From Methanobrevibacter ruminantium M1 (GTDB lineage Archaea > Methanobacteriota > Methanobacteria > Methanobacteriales > Methanobacteriaceae): DNA of 64,000 nt. Below the pieces are notes generated by a model. The model did no database searches. It saw nothing but the letters and a program-made list of their open reading frames with translations, and had not been told where the DNA came from. The translations under genes were made by a program, and so were the position numbers. Location: contig NC_013790.1 of assembly GCF_000024185.1 (NCBI RefSeq), positions 2,045,001 through 2,109,000 of the forward strand, given 5' to 3'. This document shows, in pieces, positions 4,144-60,060 of this stretch; the first letter of the stretch is position 1, and every line of letters begins with the position of its first letter.

Positions 4144-4884
4144 TCATTCATCTTCAATAATATTATTCAACTTATAAAAAGACTTTTCATCAGCGCCCTT
4201 AAATACCTCTTCAACTTTAGGGTCATGACTAAATTCAACATGATCGATATCGTGAAAGTGGCTTAGAATATTGATTCTTTTTTCAAGCTCTTCCTGACGT
4301 TCGAAAAGCAAATCAATAGCTGATGAGACAGGGTCTGGGAATTCGTGCTCTAAATCCAAAACACATTTACGGTCTTCATGAATGATTCTGCTTGGAACAC
4401 CAACTGCTGTAGCTCCCCTTGGAACATCCTGCAATACGACTGCTCCAGCTCCAATTTTAGAGGAACATCCTAATGTAATGTTTCCTAAAACCTTTGCTCC
4501 GGAGCCTATTACAACAGCATCTTCAACAGTAGGGTGTCTTTTTCCTTTGCTTAAACTTGTTCCACCAAGAACGACTCCTTGGTAAATCAAAACATCATCA
4601 CCAACAATAGTTGTCTCACCGATTACAATTCCCATTCCATGATCAATAAACACTCTTTTTCCTATTTGAGCACCAGGGTGGATTTCAATTCCTGTGAGGA
4701 ATCTTGAAATCTGTGAGAAGAATCTTCCCCAAAATGGCAAATTATGAGTCCAAAGCCAATGATTCCATCTGTGCAAAAGAATAGCCCATATTCCAGGATA
4801 ACAGCAAAGAATCTCTAAGCTACTTCTTGCAGCAGGGTCTCTTGCTTTTGCAGCTTGCAGATCATCTTTTAAATCATCAAACAT
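4144..4884 (-). CDS. cysE: Serine O-acetyltransferase
   Basis: This 246-residue enzyme transfers acetyl from acetyl-CoA to L-serine, giving O-acetylserine, the substrate of CysK. The N-terminal helical part is followed by a left-handed beta-helix of hexapeptide repeats (about residues 65-170). Hallmarks are GIEIHPGAQIGKRVFIDHG with the catalytic His, GIVIGE, GVVLGGTS, KRHP and GAVVLQDVP. After about residue 180 there is an acidic tail longer than in short bacterial CysE. The start ATG is preceded by GGTGAAATT. It lies downstream of cysK on the same strand, separated by a 444-bp gap, so it may have its own promoter. Confidence 0.94.
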   Translation of the reverse strand: MFDDLKDDLQAAKARDPAARSSLEILCCYPGIWAILLHRWNHWLWTHNLPFWGRFFSQISRFLTGIEIHPGAQIGKRVFIDHGMGIVIGETTIVGDDVLIYQGVVLGGTSLSKGKRHPTVEDAVVIGSGAKVLGNITLGCSSKIGAGAVVLQDVPRGATAVGVPSRIIHEDRKCVLDLEHEFPDPVSSAIDLLFERQEELEKRINILSHFHDIDHVEFSHDPKVEEVFKGADEKSFYKLNNIIEDE

Positions 4885-9922: not shown

Positions 9923-11542
9923 TTAAAAATCCATAAAATACCTAACAACAGTAAAGACTCCAAGCGCCAAACTTATTGTAAATCCTACAAAACCAAGCAA
10001 AGGCAGTCCAAAGAGCTTTGGCCCTGCCTCAACCATCATTGCCAATGAAGAACCTATAACAAGAGCAGCAATAATGATAGCAAGGGAAATCTGGTTAGTT
10101 ATCTCACTTATCTGCTTGACTTCAATATTTATAGTCAGCTCCCCTTCATCAACCTTATAGAAGGTTTTTGAAACAAGGCTTGGCAATGCTCTTAGCATAT
10201 GCTCAACAGTGAAAAAGGTGTTCCTAGCATTATGAACCATTTTCTTAGGATTATACTTTTGAATCATAAGCTTGCGGGCAAATGGCTTAATGATTTCTAC
10301 AATATCAATATCTGGATCTAAACTCAAACCAATATTTTCAACCATTGACAATCCTCTTGCCATTAGAACAAACTCATTTGGCAACATCACATCATATTTT
10401 TGCATTAAAAAGAGCAAATCCTCAATAACACCATTAAAACGACTGAGCTCTACCCCATAATACTTTGCAAATAAGTCGTTAAGGTCACCTTTTAAAATGC
10501 TAATGTCTGTTTTAACATTTAGAATATTCATATAAATTAACTGATTGATTAGCCCATCAATGTCACGATTTGAGAAACAAATCATCAATTCAGCCAAATC
10601 TTGTCTGAAGTTTTCATCAAGAACTCCCATCATTCCAAAATCAATGAAACATATGGAATTGTCATCTGTAATGAAAATATTTCCAGGATGAGGGTCTGCA
10701 TGGAAAAATCCGTCAAGGAAAATTTGTTTAAAATAAGCACGAACCATCCTATCTGCAATGAGTATCTTATTATATTTTGGATCATCCCCTGCAATAACTT
10801 CAGATAATTTGACCCCATCAACATATTCCATAGTCAAGACTCTTTCAGAGGAATAGTCTGGATAAATAGTTGGAACAATGATCTTATCATTATGAATGAA
10901 ATTGTCTCTTAAATGTCTGATGTTCATCAGTTCATTGTCAAAATCCATTTCCTTATGAATGGACCTGTCAAATTCCTTAACGACAGCGGGAAGATTAAGA
11001 TGCTTAAAGGTGGTATTGAATCTGTCTGATTCATTAGCAAGGAATTTCATTATATTCAAGTCAGTTTCAACGATTTCTTGAACATTGGTTTTTTGTACCT
11101 TAACCGCTACCCTTTCGCCACTATGCAGTTTAGCCTCATGGACTTGAGCGATTGAAGCTGTAGCAAGGGCTGTATCGGAAAACTCTGTAAAAAAATCTTT
11201 TAGATTTCCTCCAAGATCCTCTTCGATAATTACCTTAATTTCCTCAAAGTCAATAGGAGGATTATCATCATGGAGCTGTGAAAGTTCTTCGCTGATTCTC
11301 TCTCCAACCAAATCAGGCCTTGTGCTTAACAATTGGCCAAATTTGATAAATGTGGTTCCAAGCTCTTGCAATGTCAATCTTAATCTTTCTGGAAAGTCTT
11401 CCTTTAATAATTCTTTATTTTCTGATCCACTTCTAAATGGGCTTATCCTATTACGGGTGGTTTGGCCTAAAACCTTATCCATATCATATTTCCTAAGAAT
11501 TTTTACAATTTCATCAAAACGTGATAATGTCTTTCTTTGCAT
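9923..11542 (-). CDS. ABC1/AarF/UbiB family atypical kinase
   Basis: This 539-residue membrane-associated protein has the ABC1 protein-kinase-like fold. TTFIKFGQLLSTRPDLV near residue 70 is the KxGQ signature. AVKVQK holds the nucleotide-binding Lys, FHADPHPGN is the catalytic loop and IDFGMMG the DFG-type metal site. Two hydrophobic helices end the chain (about residues 485-535). In bacteria and mitochondria the family supports ubiquinone synthesis; archaea without quinones keep homologues of unknown role, perhaps in prenyl lipid metabolism. I start at ATG 11542 because AAGGTG precedes it; an in-frame GTG lies inside that site. Confidence 0.9.
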   Translation of the reverse strand: MQRKTLSRFDEIVKILRKYDMDKVLGQTTRNRISPFRSGSENKELLKEDFPERLRLTLQELGTTFIKFGQLLSTRPDLVGERISEELSQLHDDNPPIDFEEIKVIIEEDLGGNLKDFFTEFSDTALATASIAQVHEAKLHSGERVAVKVQKTNVQEIVETDLNIMKFLANESDRFNTTFKHLNLPAVVKEFDRSIHKEMDFDNELMNIRHLRDNFIHNDKIIVPTIYPDYSSERVLTMEYVDGVKLSEVIAGDDPKYNKILIADRMVRAYFKQIFLDGFFHADPHPGNIFITDDNSICFIDFGMMGVLDENFRQDLAELMICFSNRDIDGLINQLIYMNILNVKTDISILKGDLNDLFAKYYGVELSRFNGVIEDLLFLMQKYDVMLPNEFVLMARGLSMVENIGLSLDPDIDIVEIIKPFARKLMIQKYNPKKMVHNARNTFFTVEHMLRALPSLVSKTFYKVDEGELTINIEVKQISEITNQISLAIIIAALVIGSSLAMMVEAGPKLFGLPLLGFVGFTISLALGVFTVVRYFMDF

Positions 11543-49702: not shown

Positions 49703-51775
49703 CTAGTTGTGATAAGCCTCACAACTCTGCCGATTTAATGCATGCTTATGAATATGCATATGCTTTATTCCATTATCTGTCTTGATTTCATCAATTATCC
49801 TAATGCCTTCATGAGAATGGGAATGTTCTCCGTCATTATGGAAATGATAATGGGAGTGCTCCACATTTTCAGTGTCGATTCTTTTGATTGAATCATCAAA
49901 TTTCCTATCATAAAGCAATGCTGCATTGAGCACTACAAGACAAGATCCTGCATTATGGACTATGGCACCAGTCACTGGATTCAAGAGTCCTAAAACAGAG
50001 CAAACAATAGCTACAGCATTTATTGTCATGGAAATTATAATATTTGCCTTAATTGTAAATAAAGTTGAATTTGAAAGCTTCTTAAGATATGGAATCTTGC
50101 CAATGTCATCACCTAAAAGTGCAATGTCTGCTGCCTCGATTGCAACATCACTTCCAACTGAACCCATTGCCACGCTTACATCGGCAGTCTTAAGAGCAGG
50201 TGCGTCATTCACCCCATCTCCAATCATGCAGACCTTCTTGCCTTCATCCTTAAACCTTTCAATCCAATCAAGCTTTTCCTGAGGAAGGAGATTGCCATAT
50301 ACCTTTCCAATTCCAAGACGTGAAGCAAAATAATTTGCAGTTTCAGTATTATCTCCTGTAAGCAATACTGTTTCGGTTCCTAAGTCATGCAAGCTCTCAA
50401 TCATGGCTTTAGAATCCTCACGCATTACATCAGACAATCCGATTAAAGCTATGATCTCACCATTTAATGCAACTATAATTGAAGCCTTTCCTTCTTGTTT
50501 TAAATGATTTAATATGGAATCAACGTCCAAGTCATCCTTAGAACCAATATTAAAATCAATATTATTTTCATTTAAAAATTTGGAGTTACCTGCACATATA
50601 TGGCCATAGGAATTCTTACAATATACCCCTTTGCCAGGATACATCTTAAAGTCTTCTGGCTCTTCAATATCAACTTTAGCTTCATTTGCATAATTTACAA
50701 TAGCTTTAGCCAATGGATGTTCGCTTAATTTCTCACAAGATGCAACAATCCTTAATACATCCATTTCGTCTAAATCATCCTTTAAGGAGATAATATCTGA
50801 AACTGCTAAATTACCATAAGTTAATGTACCAGTCTTATCAAATACAAGAGTGTTCAATGCACCTAATGTTTCAAGCGCCTCACCAGACTTGATTAAGACT
50901 CCATATTTTGTCGCTTGGCCAATGGCTGCCATAATCGCAGTGGGTGTGGCAAGTATCAATGCACATGGACAGAAGACTACAAGAACAGTCACTCCCCTTT
51001 CAATATTACCTGTAACTAGCCAAGCTACGATTGCAATGGCCAATGCAACTGGAACAAGCCAAGTGGCCCATTTGTCTGCAATCCTTTGAGTCGGAGCCTG
51101 CTTTTCATCAGCTGCCTTTACAAGGTCAATCAATTTTTGAAGAGAGGAGTTTTCACCTAAGCTTGTTGCCTTAATGTCAATGGCACCATACATATTCATG
51201 GTACCGCAAAATACTTCATCGCCAACTTCCTTATCAATAGGTAATGATTCCCCAGTCATGATAGATTGATCAAGAGAGGAACTGCCCTTTATGATTTCAC
51301 CATCAACGGGAACGCTTTCACCAGGAAGGATTCTTAAGACATCGCCAATCCTTATCTCATCAACAGAAATCACTTCTTCGCTATCTCCAACGATTCTTCT
51401 TCCAGTCTGTGGAGTTAAATTGATAAGATTTCTCAATCCTTTCTTAGCTCGCTCTACAGTCCAATCCTCTAGAAGAGCACCTAATGCCATAATCCATGCA
51501 ACTTCACCTGCTGCAAAGATTTCGCCAATCAATAGTGATGCCACCATGGCTATTGCAATAAGAAGAGCAGAGGAAACCCATTTTTCGCGAATCAATCTTG
51601 TCATGGCAAGAAGAAGCATTGGAATTCCGCTAATTATTACTGTACCCCATGCAGGATTTAGATAAATCGGAGTGTCTATTCCAAAAATCATAAAAATAAC
51701 AGCAATCAAGAGAAATATCCCTGAAATAATAGTCATCTTTAAGCCAAATAGGAAATCGGTTATTTCATCAATCAC
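49703..51775 (-). CDS. P1B-type heavy-metal-transporting ATPase
   Basis: This roughly 690-residue membrane pump moves a transition metal across the cytoplasmic membrane. TGESLPIDK (actuator), FCPCALILATPTA (transmembrane metal site), FDKTGTLTYG (phosphorylated Asp) and GDGVNDAPAL are present, plus SEHPLAKAI. There is no N-terminal metal-binding domain; instead the C-terminus is His-rich (HSHYHFHNDGEHSHSHEG, HMHIHKH). The last membrane pair reads VHNAGSCLVVLNAALL. These signs suit divalent Ni, Zn or Co, but the metal is not decided. AAGGTGA faces GTG 51775; ATG 51796 upstream is the alternative. Three tandem promoters with GTAWTAC boxes lie upstream. Confidence 0.92.
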   Translation of the reverse strand: MIDEITDFLFGLKMTIISGIFLLIAVIFMIFGIDTPIYLNPAWGTVIISGIPMLLLAMTRLIREKWVSSALLIAIAMVASLLIGEIFAAGEVAWIMALGALLEDWTVERAKKGLRNLINLTPQTGRRIVGDSEEVISVDEIRIGDVLRILPGESVPVDGEIIKGSSSLDQSIMTGESLPIDKEVGDEVFCGTMNMYGAIDIKATSLGENSSLQKLIDLVKAADEKQAPTQRIADKWATWLVPVALAIAIVAWLVTGNIERGVTVLVVFCPCALILATPTAIMAAIGQATKYGVLIKSGEALETLGALNTLVFDKTGTLTYGNLAVSDIISLKDDLDEMDVLRIVASCEKLSEHPLAKAIVNYANEAKVDIEEPEDFKMYPGKGVYCKNSYGHICAGNSKFLNENNIDFNIGSKDDLDVDSILNHLKQEGKASIIVALNGEIIALIGLSDVMREDSKAMIESLHDLGTETVLLTGDNTETANYFASRLGIGKVYGNLLPQEKLDWIERFKDEGKKVCMIGDGVNDAPALKTADVSVAMGSVGSDVAIEAADIALLGDDIGKIPYLKKLSNSTLFTIKANIIISMTINAVAIVCSVLGLLNPVTGAIVHNAGSCLVVLNAALLYDRKFDDSIKRIDTENVEHSHYHFHNDGEHSHSHEGIRIIDEIKTDNGIKHMHIHKHALNRQSCEAYHN

Positions 51776-51825
51776 ATTTGTCACCTTCTTTATCATTTTA
51801 TATTAAACCATAATTTTTATTTAAT

Positions 51826-52064
51826 TAAAAAGTATTACTTTTTTTAAGTTCATTTATATACTCAGTATTACTTTTTTAAATTTTTAAAAAAATCCCCACA
51901 AAAATCAAGAAGTTTTTAAAAAAAATAGGGGTTATAAAATAAAAAGTATTACTTTTTTTTGAGTTCATTTATATACTTAGTATTACTATTAATAATATGT
52001 GCAAACTCAAATATAAATGTTATTACTTTTTTTAAGTTCATTTATATACTCAGTATTACTTTTT
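51826..52064 (-). promoter_or_regulatory. Triplicated promoter with GTATTAC boxes upstream of the metal ATPase
   Basis: Three near-identical modules each contain a minus-strand TATA box (GTATATAAAT; 51850-51862, about 51966-51977, 52038-52050). Each is flanked by a GTATTAC box on both sides: 51832 and 51865, 51946 and 51980, 52020 (TTATTAC) and 52053. Box spacing is 33-34 bp, three helical turns. The inner box of the nearest module covers its predicted start point. A metal-sensing repressor of the NikR kind is a good candidate. Confidence 0.75.
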
Positions 52065-52079
52065 GAAAAAATTGATAAA

Positions 52080-52270
52080 AAGAAGATAGCAAGAGGTATA
52101 AAAATAATAAAAAGGAATTATAAAGATAAAAAAAATAATAAAAGAAGTATAAAGATAAAAGAAATAATAAAAAAAGAATTATAAAGATAAAAAAAATAAT
52201 AAAAGAAGTATAAAGATAAAAGAAATAATAAAAAAAGAATTATAAAGATAAAAAAATTATAAAAAAAGAT
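52080..52270. repeat. T-rich tandem repeat behind the nicotianamine synthase-like gene
   Basis: Units of AAAAAGAATTATAAAGATAA and AAAAGAAGTATAAAGATAAA alternate with a combined period of about 62 bp. On the minus strand this is a run of T tracts just past the stop at 52288, resembling a repeated terminator. Confidence 0.8.
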
Positions 52271-52287
52271 TTATTTAAACCATCATA

Positions 52288-53109
52288 TTAACTAATTTTT
52301 CTAATTAAAACAGAAGTATTATTTGTTTTTCCTCTAGGAAGCAACATGACTTCCTTATGGAATCCTCTTGTGTCCTTTTCAGTTACAGGAGAATAAAGAA
52401 TAGCTCTCATACCTGTATAAGTCCTATAAAGCACAGGAGTGTCTTCATCTACAATGTCCCAGACATTTGCAAATACTCTGTCTTTAGGCTCTGCAAATGC
52501 AGCAATCATTAGAATGTCATAATCTAATTCTGCAATTGTCTTTTCATTACCTGTTACGATTTCAATTCCTTCATCAAGATCTAAACGCTTTAATACTTTT
52601 CTAGAAAGGTCTGCAACATCAGGGTCCTGTTCAATGCCTATGCACTTGCAGCCTGTCACCATATTAAACATGATAATTGTAAGAGGCAATGGCCCGCTTC
52701 CCAAGAATACAAAGGTCTTGTTTTCATTGAAATTAGCTAATTGCCTTTCATTATCTATAAGGCCTATGTATCTATCATAAAAGTGGAATGAATCCAAAGC
52801 GACCTTAGGATCATCGGCCTCCAATATTGTCAATGCATTTTCCCTCTCTAGCCTTGCTCCTATATAGACATAGAACTTACGAATCAATTGCAATGCCTTG
52901 TTCATCTTTTCATCGTCTAGAATGTGCTTTGCAGAGTCAAAATCGATTTCCTTATCGTGGGCTATGACTTCAATCTCATCTAAAATCTTTGTAATCTCAT
53001 CAATATCAGTACCATCCAATGCAGAAAGGCCTTCATTATCCAAATCACCATAGCTTGAAAGTTTGTTTGCGATTTCTTCAATTTTTCCCCAGTATTTATA
53101 ACAACTCAT
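52288..53109 (-). CDS. Nicotianamine synthase-family protein
   Basis: The 273-residue protein matches archaeal nicotianamine synthase (the MTH675 type): helical N-terminal domain, then a Rossmann-like methyltransferase fold with TFVFLGSGPLPLTIIMFN as the SAM-binding loop, GCKCIGIEQDPDVADLSRKV, and a conserved VLYRTYTGMRAILY segment. The enzyme joins aminocarboxypropyl groups from SAM (and glutamate in the archaeal case) into a metal-chelating opine-like molecule. I start it at ATG 53109 with GTGAT ahead. It lies between a nickel/opine-type ABC importer and a metal ATPase, supporting a metallophore role. Confidence 0.87.
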   Translation of the reverse strand: MSCYKYWGKIEEIANKLSSYGDLDNEGLSALDGTDIDEITKILDEIEVIAHDKEIDFDSAKHILDDEKMNKALQLIRKFYVYIGARLERENALTILEADDPKVALDSFHFYDRYIGLIDNERQLANFNENKTFVFLGSGPLPLTIIMFNMVTGCKCIGIEQDPDVADLSRKVLKRLDLDEGIEIVTGNEKTIAELDYDILMIAAFAEPKDRVFANVWDIVDEDTPVLYRTYTGMRAILYSPVTEKDTRGFHKEVMLLPRGKTNNTSVLIRKIS

Positions 53110-53581
53110 ATTAATCACAACATAAATCAATTATTTAATTATCTGACAGTCTAATTATCTATTATCCAATTATCCAATTATCTAATTTAAAATTTTTTTA
53201 GCTAATTATTACATGAATTCTTCAATATTAATACTAATTTATATAGAATTAAGAAATCCGAAATTCATTGAATTATAAATAATAAAAACATTAAAAAAAT
53301 TATTAAATTGTTTCTAATAATAAGAACAAATTTTTTACATACATTTTATATAAAATATGTTTTATAAAGTTTTGCAAAAAATAGAAAAAAATAGAAAAGA
53401 TATTTTATTAAATTTTTTACTCAAGCGAATTTAAATAAGATTAAAACATATTTTTAATAATTTAAAAAAAAATCAAATCATATTAATAAAATCTCTTCTA
53501 AAAAAAATAAAAATAGATATTAAAAGTGAATAATATTCTAAAGAAAAACATAAGAAATGTTAATCCTTAGAATAAAGACAA
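53110..53581. other. AT-rich gap between the importer and nicotianamine synthase gene
   Basis: No gene. CCAATTATCCAATTATCTAATT forms a short repeat near 53160. TATTAC at 53204 and TTAATAC at 53231 weakly resemble the GTAWTAC boxes next to a possible TATA box (TTTATATAG near 53239), but less clearly than at the neighbouring genes. The right side is T-rich after the nikE-like stop. Confidence 0.45.
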
Positions 53582-54193
53582 TTAAATATTATTAATGTCA
53601 TCAAGGTAAATGACTTCATCACAGATAATATCCATTAAGTCCCTATCGTGGCTTACAACCAATAAACCCATATTGCGCTCTTTAACTATCTTTAAAACTG
53701 ATTCGAATATCTGAACCTGTGTAATGGCGTCCAGCATAGTAGTCATCTCATCAGCTATTAAGAACTTGGTATTAGGGTTTAATGCTCTTAAGACAGAGAA
53801 TCTTTGCAATTCACCACCGGAAAGCTCTGCAGGCCATCTGTTAAGCCAAGACTTTTGAATACCAAAGTCTTCCAACAAGTCATCAGGAACTTCCCAGGAT
53901 TCTCCTAAAACATCATGCATCTTCCATTTAGGATTCATAACCTTTTCCGGGTGTTGGTAAATCAATTGAATAGGATCGAAGCCCTTTGGAATCTCCTGTC
54001 CATCTAGCCTTACCTCACCTTCATATCTTTTGATATGTCCTGCAAGAATCTTGCATAAGCTTGATTTTCCGCTTCCGCTGTCTCCAAACAATCCTAAAAT
54101 CTTCTTGTTGTCAACGGTTATGTTAACATCCTTTAAGATTTGTCTGGATCCGGAACTGTATTTAAAGGATATGTTTTTACCAGTTAATTCCAT
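53582..54193 (-). CDS. Ni/peptide-type ABC importer ATPase (NikE/OppF-like)
   Basis: The 203-residue ATPase has Walker A GLFGDSGSGKSSLCK, the ABC signature LSGGELQRFSVLRAL, Walker B FLIADEMTTMLDA, and an H-loop VVSHDRD. It is short, without the C-terminal oligopeptide-transporter extension. GAGGT precedes ATG 54193. It is last in the nikB-C-D-E gene order and powers import with its partner ATPase. Confidence 0.9.
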   Translation of the reverse strand: MELTGKNISFKYSSGSRQILKDVNITVDNKKILGLFGDSGSGKSSLCKILAGHIKRYEGEVRLDGQEIPKGFDPIQLIYQHPEKVMNPKWKMHDVLGESWEVPDDLLEDFGIQKSWLNRWPAELSGGELQRFSVLRALNPNTKFLIADEMTTMLDAITQVQIFESVLKIVKERNMGLLVVSHDRDLMDIICDEVIYLDDINNI

Positions 54194-54239
54194 AGAACTA
54201 CCTCGCATATCTTAAATAAATAAAATTCATCCATCAAAT

Positions 54240-55304
54240 CTACTCCTCAGAGCCATCCTTTATCTGATCCTCAGAACTGTCCATAACCTGCTCCTCAGAA
54301 CTATCCACAACCTGCTCCTCAGAACTATCCACAACCTGCTCCTCAGAACTGTCCTTTATCTCTCCCTCATACTTAAAGCATCTAACCCTTTTATTCTCAT
54401 CAATAGGGATTAAATGAGGTCTTGTCTTATCACAATCATCCATTTTATGAGGGCATCTGTCATAATATGGACAGCCTACCGGAATCTCACCATGCAATGG
54501 CTGATGTCCCTTTGTAAGTTCAAATCCGTTAAGAGGCAATGCCTTAAAGAGAGACTTGGTATATGGATGGAGCAAGTTCTCACCTTCGCCACTGAAATCC
54601 TCTGCATTGGCAATTTCAATTACATAGCCTGAATAGAAAATCGCAATCCTGTTTGCAACCTTCAATGCAGCATCAATATCGTGGGTAATGAGCAATACTC
54701 CCACATTGTCTGCAGCCATCTGCCTTAAATGGTTCAAGGTTTCCTCTACAGACTCCTCATCAAGCCCAGGAGTAGGCTCATCTGCAATTACAAGCTTAGG
54801 ATTTGTTAGAAGAGCGGTTGATACAAGAACCCTCCTTGCCATACCACCAGAAAGCTGGAATGGGTACATGTCATCCACTTCCTCAGAGAGATTGTACTTT
54901 TCAAAGATAGCTCTTTGCTTGGCTCTTTTTTCCTTTTCCTCTGCTTCATCCTTACATTCGCCGATTACCTGATCTGAAACCTTCATCAATGGGTCTAGGA
55001 AATTGACAGACTGTGGAATAAGTGCAATCTCATCACCACGCAATTTTTCCTTTAGCTCTTCTGTCAAGACTTCTCCCTTATAGACCATTGTACCTGAAAG
55101 GTTTGCGTTATGTGGCAATATTCCAAGTATTGCATGTGCAAGCAAACTCTTACCTGACCCGCTTGAACCTAAGACAGCTACGATTTCCCCTTCCTTAATG
55201 TCTAAGGTCAAGTCGGTGATAACCTTCAATTCCCTTTGGTTAAGGCCTTTTACATATTGTGTAAATGAAATGGAAATATTTGAAACATTAATTAAATCAC
55301 TCAT
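54240..55304 (-). CDS. Ni/peptide-type ABC importer ATPase (NikD/OppD-like)
   Basis: The 354-residue ATPase has Walker A AVLGSSGSGKSLLAHA, the signature LSGGMARRVLVSTAL and Walker B LVIADEPTPGLD. The C-terminal oligopeptide-transporter domain has GCPYYDRCPHKMDDC with clustered Cys. The last 45 residues are an acidic repeat (SSEEQVVD, five copies, 24-bp DNA period), an unusual tail. GGTGATATT precedes the ATG, eight bases after the permease stop. Confidence 0.92.
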   Translation of the reverse strand: MSDLINVSNISISFTQYVKGLNQRELKVITDLTLDIKEGEIVAVLGSSGSGKSLLAHAILGILPHNANLSGTMVYKGEVLTEELKEKLRGDEIALIPQSVNFLDPLMKVSDQVIGECKDEAEEKEKRAKQRAIFEKYNLSEEVDDMYPFQLSGGMARRVLVSTALLTNPKLVIADEPTPGLDEESVEETLNHLRQMAADNVGVLLITHDIDAALKVANRIAIFYSGYVIEIANAEDFSGEGENLLHPYTKSLFKALPLNGFELTKGHQPLHGEIPVGCPYYDRCPHKMDDCDKTRPHLIPIDENKRVRCFKYEGEIKDSSEEQVVDSSEEQVVDSSEEQVMDSSEDQIKDGSEE

Positions 55305-55312
55305 AATATCAC

Positions 55313-56173
55313 CTAATCATTTGCGCTTGCCGGATCTAGCATCTTCTTGATGTTTTCTCCTGCAATATCAAAGAGCAATACAAGAATCAATAATGCTAAA
55401 CCAGGGAATAAAGCCAACCACCAATTACCAGTTGCAAGATATTTCATGGATTCGGAAAGAATGATACCGATAGCCGGTTCGTGTGGAGATAAACCGAAAC
55501 CTAAGAATGTTACACTAGCTTCGTGCATGATTGCGTGAGGGAAAATCAATATTGTACCAACGATAACTTGGCTGATTACCAATGGCAAGATTTGCTTTCT
55601 TGCAATCCAGAACTTGGATTTTCCTAATCTTTCAGAGATTGTTACAAACTCTGAAGTCTTGATACGTTTGATTTCAGCCCTAAGGACCCTAGCAAGAGAT
55701 GTCCAGTGAGTGAATGCCACACCAACCAATACACCGAATGCTCCTCCACCGAGAGCGATGGAAATAAGAATGATAAGCAAAATATGCGGAATAGAGAGGA
55801 ACACATCTATAAGCCAAGATACAAAGCTGTCTAAATATTTGTTGAAGCTTGAAAGGAAAGCTAAAGCAACAGCAATGATGCTACTTAATATGGAAGCGAA
55901 GAATCCTATCTGAACACTTAATCCTAAACCCTTGATTGTACGTGTGAACATATCTCTTCCCATCCAGTCAGTACCGAATAGGTGCTCAAGGGAAGGTGGC
56001 TGATTCATAATGGACCAATCGGTTGTGATGCTTGTAGGGTCAATGAAGAAACTGACAAGAACCACTACAATCAATATGAAGGCAGAGAGTCCTATTGCAA
56101 GCAGGGTCTTGGTTCTTAAGTTCATGCTTCCTAAAACGTCAAACTTATTCATCTTATTAGCTGACTCATCCAT
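55313..56173 (-). CDS. Ni/peptide-type ABC importer permease (NikC/OppC-like)
   Basis: The 286-residue permease has six membrane segments and the BPD_transp_1 EAA loop (SERLGKSKFWIARKQILPLVIS). An N-terminal extracellular loop holds HLFGTDWMGRDMFTR, typical of the OppC/NikC half. I start it at ATG 56173 with AAGGTGA ahead; it overlaps the upstream permease stop by eight bases, so translation is coupled. Confidence 0.92.
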   Translation of the reverse strand: MDESANKMNKFDVLGSMNLRTKTLLAIGLSAFILIVVVLVSFFIDPTSITTDWSIMNQPPSLEHLFGTDWMGRDMFTRTIKGLGLSVQIGFFASILSSIIAVALAFLSSFNKYLDSFVSWLIDVFLSIPHILLIILISIALGGGAFGVLVGVAFTHWTSLARVLRAEIKRIKTSEFVTISERLGKSKFWIARKQILPLVISQVIVGTILIFPHAIMHEASVTFLGFGLSPHEPAIGIILSESMKYLATGNWWLALFPGLALLILVLLFDIAGENIKKMLDPASAND

Positions 56174-57158
56174 TTTCCTCACCTTCTCTTATTCTTGGAT
56201 CTACAAAGTTATAGAGAATATCTGCAATCAGGTTACCGCAATAAACGAATATCGCACTGAAGATAACGATTCCCAACAGCAGAGGTACGTCGCTTCTCAA
56301 ACCTGCTGAAACGGCTGCCTGACCGATTCCAGGATACATGAATACCTGTTCGACAAGAACGGTTCCACCGAAGAGTTCACTGAATGATAAGAACTGCAAG
56401 GTGATTGCAGGTAGTAGAATGTTTCTTATACCGTGCCTTTTAATCAAGGTCCATCCGGATTCCCCTCTTGCCTTTGCAAAGAGGAAGTAATCGGTTGTCA
56501 TTACTTCAATAAGCTTGTCACGAGTATAGAGTGCAATTGATGCAACTCCTAAAATGCTCAGCGTAAATGCCGGCAATATCAGGTGCTTCAACCAATCGAA
56601 GAAGGACACATCCTGACTCAGCGCCCCAATCGGAACGCCCCCGCTTACTGGGAACCATCCCAGATAAATACTGAATACCATTACAACAAGCAAAGCAATC
56701 CAGAAGGTAGGTGCAGATTGCAATACGTAACAGTATACCTTTACAACCCTATCAATCCAAGTGTCTCTTTTAAATCCTGCAAGAACTCCTAAAGCAAAGC
56801 CCAATATTCCAGAAATCACCCAACTGGTTAGCATCAAGATAAGGGATGCTGTGAACTTTTCAGCAATTACCTGCAATACAGGAGTTCTGTATATTAAGGA
56901 AGTTCCAAAATCACCAGTGATAATATTTCCTAACCAATTGATCAGTTTTTCAGTAATCGGCTGATTTACACCCCAATATGCTTCTAGTTTAGCAATCTTT
57001 TCAGGGCTTACAACCATATTGGAAATATAAGCGTTAACCGGATTAATAGGAGACATGTCAATTAATATAAAACTTAATAATATTACAACTATTAATAAAA
57101 TAGCAAAACGAACGAGTTTATAACCTAAAAACTTAAGTATTTTCTGTTTGTCTAACAA
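56166..57158 (-). CDS. Ni/peptide-type ABC importer permease (NikB/OppB-like)
   Basis: The 330-residue permease has six membrane segments, the N-terminal signature FILIDMSPINPVNAYI, TSLIYRTPVLQVI and the EAA loop ARGESGWTLIKRHGIRNILLPAI. It starts at TTG 57158 with GGAGG seven bases upstream. The substrate-binding gene is separated by a 628-bp structured gap, so the permease may have its own promoter or depend on read-through. Confidence 0.92.
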   Translation of the reverse strand: MLDKQKILKFLGYKLVRFAILLIVVILLSFILIDMSPINPVNAYISNMVVSPEKIAKLEAYWGVNQPITEKLINWLGNIITGDFGTSLIYRTPVLQVIAEKFTASLILMLTSWVISGILGFALGVLAGFKRDTWIDRVVKVYCYVLQSAPTFWIALLVVMVFSIYLGWFPVSGGVPIGALSQDVSFFDWLKHLILPAFTLSILGVASIALYTRDKLIEVMTTDYFLFAKARGESGWTLIKRHGIRNILLPAITLQFLSFSELFGGTVLVEQVFMYPGIGQAAVSAGLRSDVPLLLGIVIFSAIFVYCGNLIADILYNFVDPRIREGEENG

Positions 57159-57786
57159 AAAATAACCTCCTATATCTAAATTTTTGTATAATAATTATAA
57201 ATAACTCAAAAACTTATTATATAATGCCAATCCCCAACTTAAGAATACTTATACAGACAATCTCCAACTTAAAGGGGGCATATAATAATTTAAGAGAATA
57301 ATGAAAAAATTTAGGTAAAACTAAATTATGAAATCTTAAAACACATTATAATAACTAAATACACATAATGAAAAATCATGCCCTTAAAAAACTTTTCATA
57401 AATCATCTGGGAAAAAATGAAAAAGGTATAAATTATTTTTTAAGGAAAAAATAAAACTAATTTTTTTAATATGAATTAAAAAAACCAATTTAAAACTTGA
57501 AACTAAATTAATTTTTTTAATAAAATTAAAAAAACTAATTTAAAATGATAAAACTGATTCTTTTATAAAAAAAATCATATGATTAATATTTTAATGAAAA
57601 TAATAATTTCTTAAAACTAAAAATATTCTTTATAATAATTAAAAAAATGCAATTTTAATTAATAAAAAAAGTAGAAAAGGTTTTTAAACTTTTAGAGTTT
57701 TTAAAACTTTCTAAAGTGTTTAAAACTTTTTAAACTGTTTAAAACTTTCTAAAGTGTTTAAAACTTTTCTACTTAATTGATATTAA
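57159..57786. other. Structured gap between substrate-binding protein and permease genes
   Basis: At the left, GCCAATCCCCAACTTAA (57226-57242) is repeated as GACAATCTCCAACTTAA (57256-57272) beside minus-strand TATA-like sequence, suggesting a permease promoter. At the right, AAGTAGAAAAG...TTTAAAC (57669-57689) pairs with GTTTAAAACTTTTCTACTT (57756-57774) in a long hairpin, enclosing 38-bp repeats. The middle is plain AT-rich DNA. Confidence 0.65.
57669..57774 (-). terminator. Large hairpin behind the substrate-binding protein gene
   Basis: Two arms of 19-21 bases match at 19 positions and enclose about 65 bases with two copies of CTTTCTAAAGTGTTTAAAAC (38-bp period) that can fold on their own. 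It begins 12 bases after the stop. It likely ends or attenuates the transcript, keeping the binding protein in excess over the permease. Confidence 0.6.
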
Positions 57787-59400
57787 TTATTTTTCTGCAG
57801 TAGCGTTAGTCATGGTCCAATCATATACGTTACTGAATAAGTCTCCTCCGTGAGGTTGTAAGAGAGCGGTGTCATTGGAAATGTCCACTCTGTCGTTTAC
57901 GAAGTAACCATATTTGATTTCACCTAACCATAACCAGTTTGCGTCACCTTTAGGGGAAATACCGGTAGAACCGTCCCAGGATACTGCAGACCAATCTTTG
58001 TAAGAGTCTTCACGGGATTCAGCAAATGCGTCATCCATGTGTTTGTCAACAGCACTGTTGTTTACTCTTGCAGGGTTGAAGTCAGAGGAACTGTAGTATT
58101 CTCCATACATGTCAGATGGATCTGTGGAACCGTATCCCCAGAGAACTCCTTGTGAGAATTCGTTAGGATAGATTTCGTCCCATTCAGCACCTACAGGTTC
58201 GATTTCAATACCGAATTGTTTAGCTTGTTCAGCAGCACCGACAGCTAAAGCTTGTCTTTCAGGTGCACTTGCAGAGTAGTAGATCTTAAATGAAGCTTTG
58301 GTTCCGTTTTTCTCTCTGATTCCATCTCCGTCAGAGTCAACCCAACCAGCTTCTTCTAAGGTTTTGTTTGCGTATGCAACGTCACCGTCTTCAATTGCTG
58401 CTTCTTTGTTAGCCCATGGTAATTGGTGAGCAATACCGTCATAGGAAGGATAACCTAATCCGTTTAATGCTCCTTCAGCTAAAGCAGTTCTGTTAATACC
58501 ATAGTTCAATGCTTTTCTGATTGCAATATCGCAGGTTACATTGTTACCGATTGTGTAGTTGTCATCTGGAGATAATTCTCCGGTATCAGGTACACTAGGT
58601 AAAGATACACCACGAACGTCGATGGTGTCTTGTAAGTACATTGTGTAACCGTCAAGTTTTTCTTTACCATATTCGAGAGGTACAGCTACGATATCAGCTT
58701 CTCCGTTTTTAGCTAAGTTGAACGCAGCTTCGTTTTGAGCAAAGAGAATGGTTATCTTTTCGATTTCAGGTTGTTTACCATAGTAATCAGGGTTTTTCTC
58801 TAAGATAACTTGTTGACCTTTGTCCCATTGTACGAATTTGTATGGTCCAGAACCGATTGGGTTTTCACCATATGATTCGTTGTTATAAGAATCGGAAGGA
58901 ACAATACCAATGTAAGCCATCTTATCTAAGAAAGTGGAATCTGATTTGTTTAAGGTGAATTTGACTTTGTAATCACCTTGAGCTTCAGCCTTATCTAAAG
59001 CGGATAAGTCTAAGCTTGCGCCAGATTCTTTAGCTGCGTTGTATGTGAATGCTACATCTTCAGCAGTCAAGTCAGAACCGTCAGTGAATTTGACATCTTT
59101 TCTTAAGTCTACAGTGTATGTCTTATAATCATCGCTAATCTCATAGTCTGTAGCCAAATCTTTTGCGTAAGTACCGTTAGGGGTCATTTTCAATAAGGTA
59201 CTTTGAATGAGTGGCTCAGCATAATAGTTCCAACCTGCAATTGGATCGAAACCAGCTTCTGGTTCTCCTCCGTGACTGTAAGCTGCAACTACGATTTCTC
59301 CAGGACCTCTTTCAGTAGTGCCTCCTCCCATGAGGACAGCAGCACCAACAATTATAACAAGAAGTGCAACAACTGCACCGATAATAATTTTTTTATCCAT
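57787..59400 (-). CDS. Nickel/peptide/opine-type ABC importer substrate-binding protein (NikA/CntA-like)
   Basis: The 537-residue SBP family 5 protein is anchored by an N-terminal helix (IIIGAVVALLVIIVGAAVLM) with no lipobox Cys. Family features include DLATDYEISDDYKTYTVDLRKDVKFTDG, AEDVAFTYN and NPIGSGPYKFVQWDKGQQV. Binding-site residues for nickel, metallophore or peptide cannot be told apart by eye. AAGGAG precedes the ATG. A dense cluster of GTAATAC boxes lies upstream. The nicotianamine synthase-like gene in the same locus suggests its ligand is a metal-opine complex. Confidence 0.9.
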   Translation of the reverse strand: MDKKIIIGAVVALLVIIVGAAVLMGGGTTERGPGEIVVAAYSHGGEPEAGFDPIAGWNYYAEPLIQSTLLKMTPNGTYAKDLATDYEISDDYKTYTVDLRKDVKFTDGSDLTAEDVAFTYNAAKESGASLDLSALDKAEAQGDYKVKFTLNKSDSTFLDKMAYIGIVPSDSYNNESYGENPIGSGPYKFVQWDKGQQVILEKNPDYYGKQPEIEKITILFAQNEAAFNLAKNGEADIVAVPLEYGKEKLDGYTMYLQDTIDVRGVSLPSVPDTGELSPDDNYTIGNNVTCDIAIRKALNYGINRTALAEGALNGLGYPSYDGIAHQLPWANKEAAIEDGDVAYANKTLEEAGWVDSDGDGIREKNGTKASFKIYYSASAPERQALAVGAAEQAKQFGIEIEPVGAEWDEIYPNEFSQGVLWGYGSTDPSDMYGEYYSSSDFNPARVNNSAVDKHMDDAFAESREDSYKDWSAVSWDGSTGISPKGDANWLWLGEIKYGYFVNDRVDISNDTALLQPHGGDLFSNVYDWTMTNATAEK

Positions 59401-59488: not shown

Positions 59489-59690
59489 AGTAATACTAAT
59501 TTTAAAATTGTTAATAATTTAATACTTTATATTTATTTATTATTACTTAGGAATATAAAAATATTTCTAAAAAAAGTAATACAAAATTGATTAATTTGGA
59601 CTATAAAGTAATAATTATTACTGAAATTAATTTATTTTAAATATAAAGTAATACTAGGCAAATAGAATAAGTAATACTTATTAGTATTAC
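59489..59690 (-). promoter_or_regulatory. GTAATAC operator array upstream of the substrate-binding protein gene
   Basis: GTAATAC or its complement GTATTAC occurs at 59490, 59576, 59648, 59671 and 59684. TATTAC lies at 59541. A perfect 16-bp palindrome AGTAATAATTATTACT is at 59607-59622. Spacings of about 32-36 bp recur, as in the ATPase promoter. 59671-59690 forms an inverted pair with a 6-bp spacer. A minus-strand TATA box (AAATATAAAG near 59525-59534) lies inside. Confidence 0.75.
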
Positions 59691-59814: not shown

Positions 59815-60060
59815 TATAAAAGAATATATTATAAAAAAAATAATTATAAAAAAAATATCCTAAAAAAGAAATATTATAAAAAAAATATCCTAAAAAAGAA
59901 ACTATTATAAAAAAAAATATCCTAAAAAAGAAACTATTATAAAAAAAAAATATCCTAAAAAAGAAACTATTATAAAAAAAAATAATCTAAAAAAAATATC
60001 CTAAAAAAGAAACTATTATAAAAAAAATAATCTAAAAAAAATAGCCCATAAAAGTAGATT
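59815..60060. repeat. Tandem U-tract repeat behind mch
   Basis: AAATATCCTAAAAAAGAAACTATTATAAAA recurs five to six times with period 31-33 bp and inserts of AATAATCTAAAAA. On the minus strand each unit contains one or two runs of six to ten T, just past the mch stop. The rest of 59401-60123 is described by the operator array. Confidence 0.9.

Follow-up and report, generated by a model that had tools for sequence, protein, structure and literature searches.

Tandem promoter-operator modules upstream of a heavy-metal ATPase gene in Methanobrevibacter ruminantium M1 as candidate elements of a nickel-limitation regulon

The known operators of the nickel regulator NikR are inverted repeats whose half-sites lie 20-22 bp apart (13-16 bp spacer), as in the Escherichia coli operator GTATGA-N16-TCATAC, and NikR acts at them mainly as a repressor. 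The NikR site predicted in delta-proteobacteria is GTGTTAC-N13/14-GTAACAC, with GTATTAC appearing once, at a nickel-free hydrogenase (PMC545781). In Methanothermobacter marburgensis, the proteins Hmd, HcgG and Elp go up under nickel limitation (PMC12350162). That work addressed protein levels, and no promoter or operator motif was found in its text; in M. ruminantium, the homologues of hmd, hmdC and elpABC carry the boxes described below. A further comparison is offered by the staphylopine/pseudopaline-type clusters, which combine a nicotianamine synthase (NAS)-like enzyme with a Nik/Opp-type ABC importer. In M. ruminantium a NAS-like gene likewise lies beside a nikABCDE-type operon; the locus differs by the addition of a P1B ATPase and, in relatives, of a GNAT acetyltransferase.

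The window analyzed here is a 64-kb stretch of the M. ruminantium M1 genome, whose relevant features are listed in Table 1. The 491-bp gap between the NAS-like gene and the ATPase gene, both on the minus strand, was described in the initial annotation as containing three modules with a TATA box between two boxes, and this arrangement was confirmed. Five out of the six boxes are exact, and the one at 52020 reads TTATTAC (GTAATAA on the gene strand), a single mismatch that is also present as GTAATAA in several relatives. The sequence TTTATATA (+ strand) occurs between the boxes of every pair, at 51853, 51968 and 52041, and the gene-strand consensus of the module is GTAATAC-tgaGTATATAAATgAACTy-A-tract-GTAATAC. 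Since the modules measure 40-41 bp from box to box and the distances between successive module starts are 114 and 74 bp, they are dispersed rather than arranged head-to-tail. The intergenic region holds five GTAWTAC boxes, as compared with a mean of 0.04 and a maximum of 2 in 5000 dinucleotide shuffles, and a chance origin of the boxes upstream of the ATPase gene is excluded. The cluster upstream of nikA, with the same number of boxes, is likewise far above the shuffle expectation. Boxes are not equally common in unrelated intergenic DNA, since just three more are found in the window beyond the two clusters. The nikA cluster includes an inverted pair, GTAATAC-N6-GTATTAC (59671-59690), and A/T-rich imperfect tandem repeats adjoin both clusters, at 52080-52260 (units near 61 bp) and 59830-60040 (repeated TATCCTAAAAAAGAAACTATTATAAAA).

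Table 1. Features of the ATPase and nik loci (coordinates within the 64-kb window)
Feature	Coordinates	Strand	Details
Proximal module	51832..51871	-	Boxes GTAATAC 51865-51871 and 51832-51838 (+ strand 51832/51865, 33 bp); TATATAAA 51853-51860; A-tract; reads toward ATPase
Middle module	51946..51986	-	Boxes 51980-51986 and 51946-51952 (+ strand 51946/51980, 34 bp); TATA 51968-51975
Distal module	52020..52059	-	Boxes 52053-52059 and 52020-52026 (+ strand 52020/52053, 33 bp); TATA 52041-52048
Heavy-metal P1B ATPase	49703..51796	-	CPC motif, His-rich C-terminus
Nicotianamine-synthase-like gene, candidate metallophore enzyme	52288..53130	-	Pfam NAS E=3e-20; CntL-like; next upstream of ATPase
nikABCDE-type nickel ABC transporter operon	53582..59400	-	Same regulon as ATPase
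Second GTAWTAC cluster upstream of nikA	59490..59690	.	Boxes 59490, 59576, 59648, 59671, 59684; palindrome GTAATAATTATTAC near 59608

Translation of the ATPase probably begins at the GTG at 51775, seven codons into the longest open reading frame, rather than at the ATG at 51796; in this stretch (window 51773-51796), the GTG and the ribosome site AAGGTGA are conserved in the orthologues. Several g5 relatives have the proximal module immediately followed by the ribosome site and start codon, and in several relatives its TATA box is at the right distance from both gene and ribosome site. In those genomes this close contact means that the proximal TATA box would face the ATPase gene and the expected start point would lie at the downstream box. 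In M. ruminantium, the start site predicted about 25 bp past the proximal TATA box falls in or beside the second box. In the TATA orientation test on genome k-mers, TTTATATA and TATATAAA were equally frequent upstream of genes, and the tRNA genes in the DNA examined for this purpose were only two, too few to help. No clear BRE was seen at the TATA boxes of the modules. A structured RNA or riboswitch in the spacer 51872-51945 was considered and rejected, given that this spacer had no Rfam match, a fold z of -1.75, and no conservation in relatives.

The motif is rare in the genome, a single contig of 2,937,203 bp, with 191 GTAWTAC sites in 2.94 Mb; individual sites were listed in full up to 1.96 Mb, and the pair searches covered the whole genome, in the case of same-orientation pairs at distances of 27 bp or more. 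A genome scan for paired boxes, proposed in the initial annotation, yielded 10 distinct pairs at 31-34 bp, mostly at nickel genes. The ATPase gene has two exact pairs plus a third one with one mismatch, three pairs precede cbiM (cbiMNQ), hmd, a GNAT gene and a second nikA-like gene each have a pair upstream, a further pair lies between elpABC and leuS, and one belongs to a prophage-like region. Boxes at other spacings were found upstream of the nikA gene of the window and of elpABC (28 bp), and a single box precedes cfbB. The target genes were identified as encoding HmdC, Hmd, CbiM, CbiN, CbiQ, a NikA-like binding protein, the F430 enzyme CfbB and ElpA/B/C-like proteins; the Elp assignment relies on how these proteins are described in PMC12350162. 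At the sequence level, the sites thus precede nickel transport and nickel-sparing genes and are conserved in relatives. This concentration of pairs at a nickel gene set supports the earlier suggestion of promoter-operators belonging to a metal regulon, and points to nickel as the likely metal.

Boxes were also observed elsewhere. The prophage-like region (L031; portal, Mu F-like proteins) contains a 32-bp pair (4482-4520) and a 10-bp pair (10052-10068), and genes for large adhesin-like proteins are preceded by GTAWTAC boxes (L045 4776-4833 and 10701-10856, L046 4653; genome 2622775-2639658) at spacings that do not match the 32-bp pair. The GNAT acetyltransferase gene recurs together with boxes (L042 5060-5620, minus strand; L265 10320-10793; L266 3959-4513).

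The organization of the ATPase locus is shared by related genomes. Boxes are present at the ATPase loci of 29 records of related genomes, and the orthologues from several genera typically carry 2-4 pairs at about 31-34 bp. The initial annotation had regarded the triplicated promoter as peculiar to the ATPase gene, a view that is not supported, given these orthologues and the three pairs at cbiMNQ. The histogram of box distances in relatives has its peak at 32-33 bp (56 pairs) and further peaks at 40-44 and 72-74 bp, so that distances are near whole numbers of helical turns; these relatives share ancestry, and the locus counts are not independent. Phasing of adjacent core boxes within the M. 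ruminantium genome is weaker than in relatives (R=0.60, n=18, p ~0.002). In four g1 relatives (L053, L055, L056 and L057) the TATA box of the module is weak or absent and the box pairs are kept, indicating that the paired operator is better conserved than the TATA box. Exact same-orientation pairs occur in 68 of 80 family genomes, and a reversed control pattern gave few matches.

Conservation extends to other target genes. The box density upstream of hmd was 3.08/kb, in comparison with 0.11 over the remainder of these loci, and in a second, overlapping locus set the values were 4.28/kb and 0.04 elsewhere, corresponding to an enrichment of 28- to 100-fold. In two loci from other genera or species, pairs are located between divergent GNAT and NAS genes (L266) or beside GNAT, NAS and ATPase genes clustered with elpABC (L265); in both of them the GNAT gene lies beside the NAS-like gene, and its product may modify a nicotianamine-like metallophore. 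In genus g16 (L263 5531-6835, L264 5129-6439), a TATA-containing module is found inside the cbiMNQ/O operon, ahead of a gene for an EamA-like transporter, named as such by eye; the slot of this module in the operon is comparable to that of the ATPase.

We estimate a probability of roughly 60% that the modules are nickel-regulated promoter-operators of the ATPase gene within a genome-wide nickel-limitation regulon, most likely read by NikR, a reading that draws on the boxes, their spacing, their conservation and their target genes as they stand in the DNA. The operator unit would consist of two near-palindromic aGTAWTACt boxes about 32 bp, that is, three helical turns, apart. In the ATPase module the upstream box adjoins the putative TFB/TBP site and the downstream box would be placed at the expected start point. 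As for the direction of regulation that we infer, under nickel sufficiency a nickel-loaded dimer of dimers, most likely NikR, would grip both boxes and block access of TBP/TFB and RNA polymerase. When nickel becomes scarce the regulator would release the DNA, and the ATPase would be transcribed along with the genes for nickel uptake, those of the metallophore type and those for Hmd and Elp, the enzymes of the nickel-free bypass. The presence of 2-4 helically phased modules may make this switch cooperative and steeper, and each module that keeps its TATA box may provide an extra start point. Simple occlusion may not hold everywhere, since about 200-450 bp separate the boxes of hmd and cbiM from the start codon downstream of them. 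P1B ATPases of this class are usually thought of as exporters; the presence of such an ATPase in a nickel-starvation regulon is odd and counts against the explanation that we favor.

Several observations bear on whether NikR reads the boxes, as the initial annotation had sensibly suggested. The genome encodes one NikR copy (E=3.7e-31), and the protein was found in 72 of 80 family genomes; among the family members read, its DNA-binding strand RISMS shows no variation. Solved structures of NikR relatives exist, with 2bj1 as the best match. Both this NikR (L001 1333-1839) and the ATPase (window 49703-51796) have histidine-rich C-terminal tails. Bacterial NikR systems share with the boxes described here a close half-site, GTAWTAC being of the GTRTTAC type and one substitution away from the delta-proteobacterial consensus GTGTTAC, as well as targets in nickel transport and nickel-free hydrogenase functions. 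On the other hand, the half-sites of bacterial operators are two turns apart, whereas here the distance is 32-33 bp, or three turns, the boxes are near-palindromic and form arrays of 2-4 pairs, and the TATA box is placed inside the pair. The 20-22 bp spacing of NikR operators was not found among mixed-orientation pairs at 10-40 bp in the whole genome, core-box distances included none at 20-21 bp and peaked at 31-34 bp, and no classical NikR spacing was detected in the loci upstream of hmd. The array may function like a NikR operator; it was not classed as one, because a spacing of 32-33 bp departs from the defining feature of the known ones. This divergence leaves room for a protein other than NikR that would read the same nickel-regulon operator with one dimer per palindromic box. 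Each box is by itself palindromic or near-palindromic (AGTAWTACT), there is no box near nikR itself, and genus g4 has kept NikR and lacks exact pairs, all of which would fit such a reader. We nevertheless consider it rather unlikely, since the loci read showed no further regulator gene next to the regulon, the NikR of delta-proteobacteria has a similar half-site, and a ribbon-helix-helix dimer should itself favor a symmetric box. In spite of the difference in spacing, NikR would be the likeliest reader of the boxes.

The two remaining explanations concern what the boxes do. They might be activator sites, to which a regulator bound at low nickel would recruit TBP/TFB, with more copies leading to more output; the distant location of the hmd and cbiM boxes would suit this possibility, which is nonetheless improbable considering that the boxes of the ATPase gene bracket the TATA box and the expected start point, as would suit blocking, and that known NikR proteins mainly repress. 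Alternatively, AT-rich DNA might have been duplicated recently and neutrally, with no regulatory meaning; modules are 81% alike within a genome vs 76% for same-rank modules of other genomes, which might point that way. However, pairs at a constant 31-34 bp with a module period of 72-74 bp recur in several genera, and boxes were retained where the TATA box decayed, which makes a neutral origin extremely improbable. The 2-4 pairs of the ATPase orthologues rule out a recent triplication and indicate that the multiplication of the modules is old.

Published expression data were compared with the distribution of boxes. In lauric acid-treated M. ruminantium M1, RNA-seq revealed that hmd, cbiM1, cbiN1, nikB1, nikA2-D2 and mru_1613 were up by 1.1-1.6 log2 (PMC5816558). 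The value for mru_1613, annotated as a SAM-dependent methyltransferase, was 1.58 log2 (PMC5816558); by gene order, this is probably the NAS-like gene. The ATPase is absent from the table of that non-nickel experiment (PMC5816558). Altogether, 10 box genes were raised out of a regulon of about 24 genes by our own count, with p ~2e-7 by gene and only 0.06 by operon. These data indicate co-regulation at best, and not the signal involved.

The modules provide a concrete candidate operator through which Methanobrevibacter could respond to nickel limitation, Hmd and Elp included; a regulatory sequence for the induction of Hmd and Elp in methanogens was not found in the literature searched. It is tempting, although still tentative, to consider the array as an undescribed archaeal nickel-sensor operator, made of three-turn box pairs that enclose a TATA box in 2-4 phased copies. 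NikR, or a new regulator, would then bind DNA in a way unseen in bacteria, and the array would switch hydrogen metabolism from nickel-dependent to nickel-free and back; an archaeal NikR motif may have been reported before. The arrangement suggests that an operator wide enough to enclose the TATA box can be used by NikR or a different sensor, which, if true, would represent an archaea-specific way to join metal sensing with the exclusion of TBP. Since nickel supply sets which hydrogenases these methane producers use, such an element would tie metal supply to methanogenesis.
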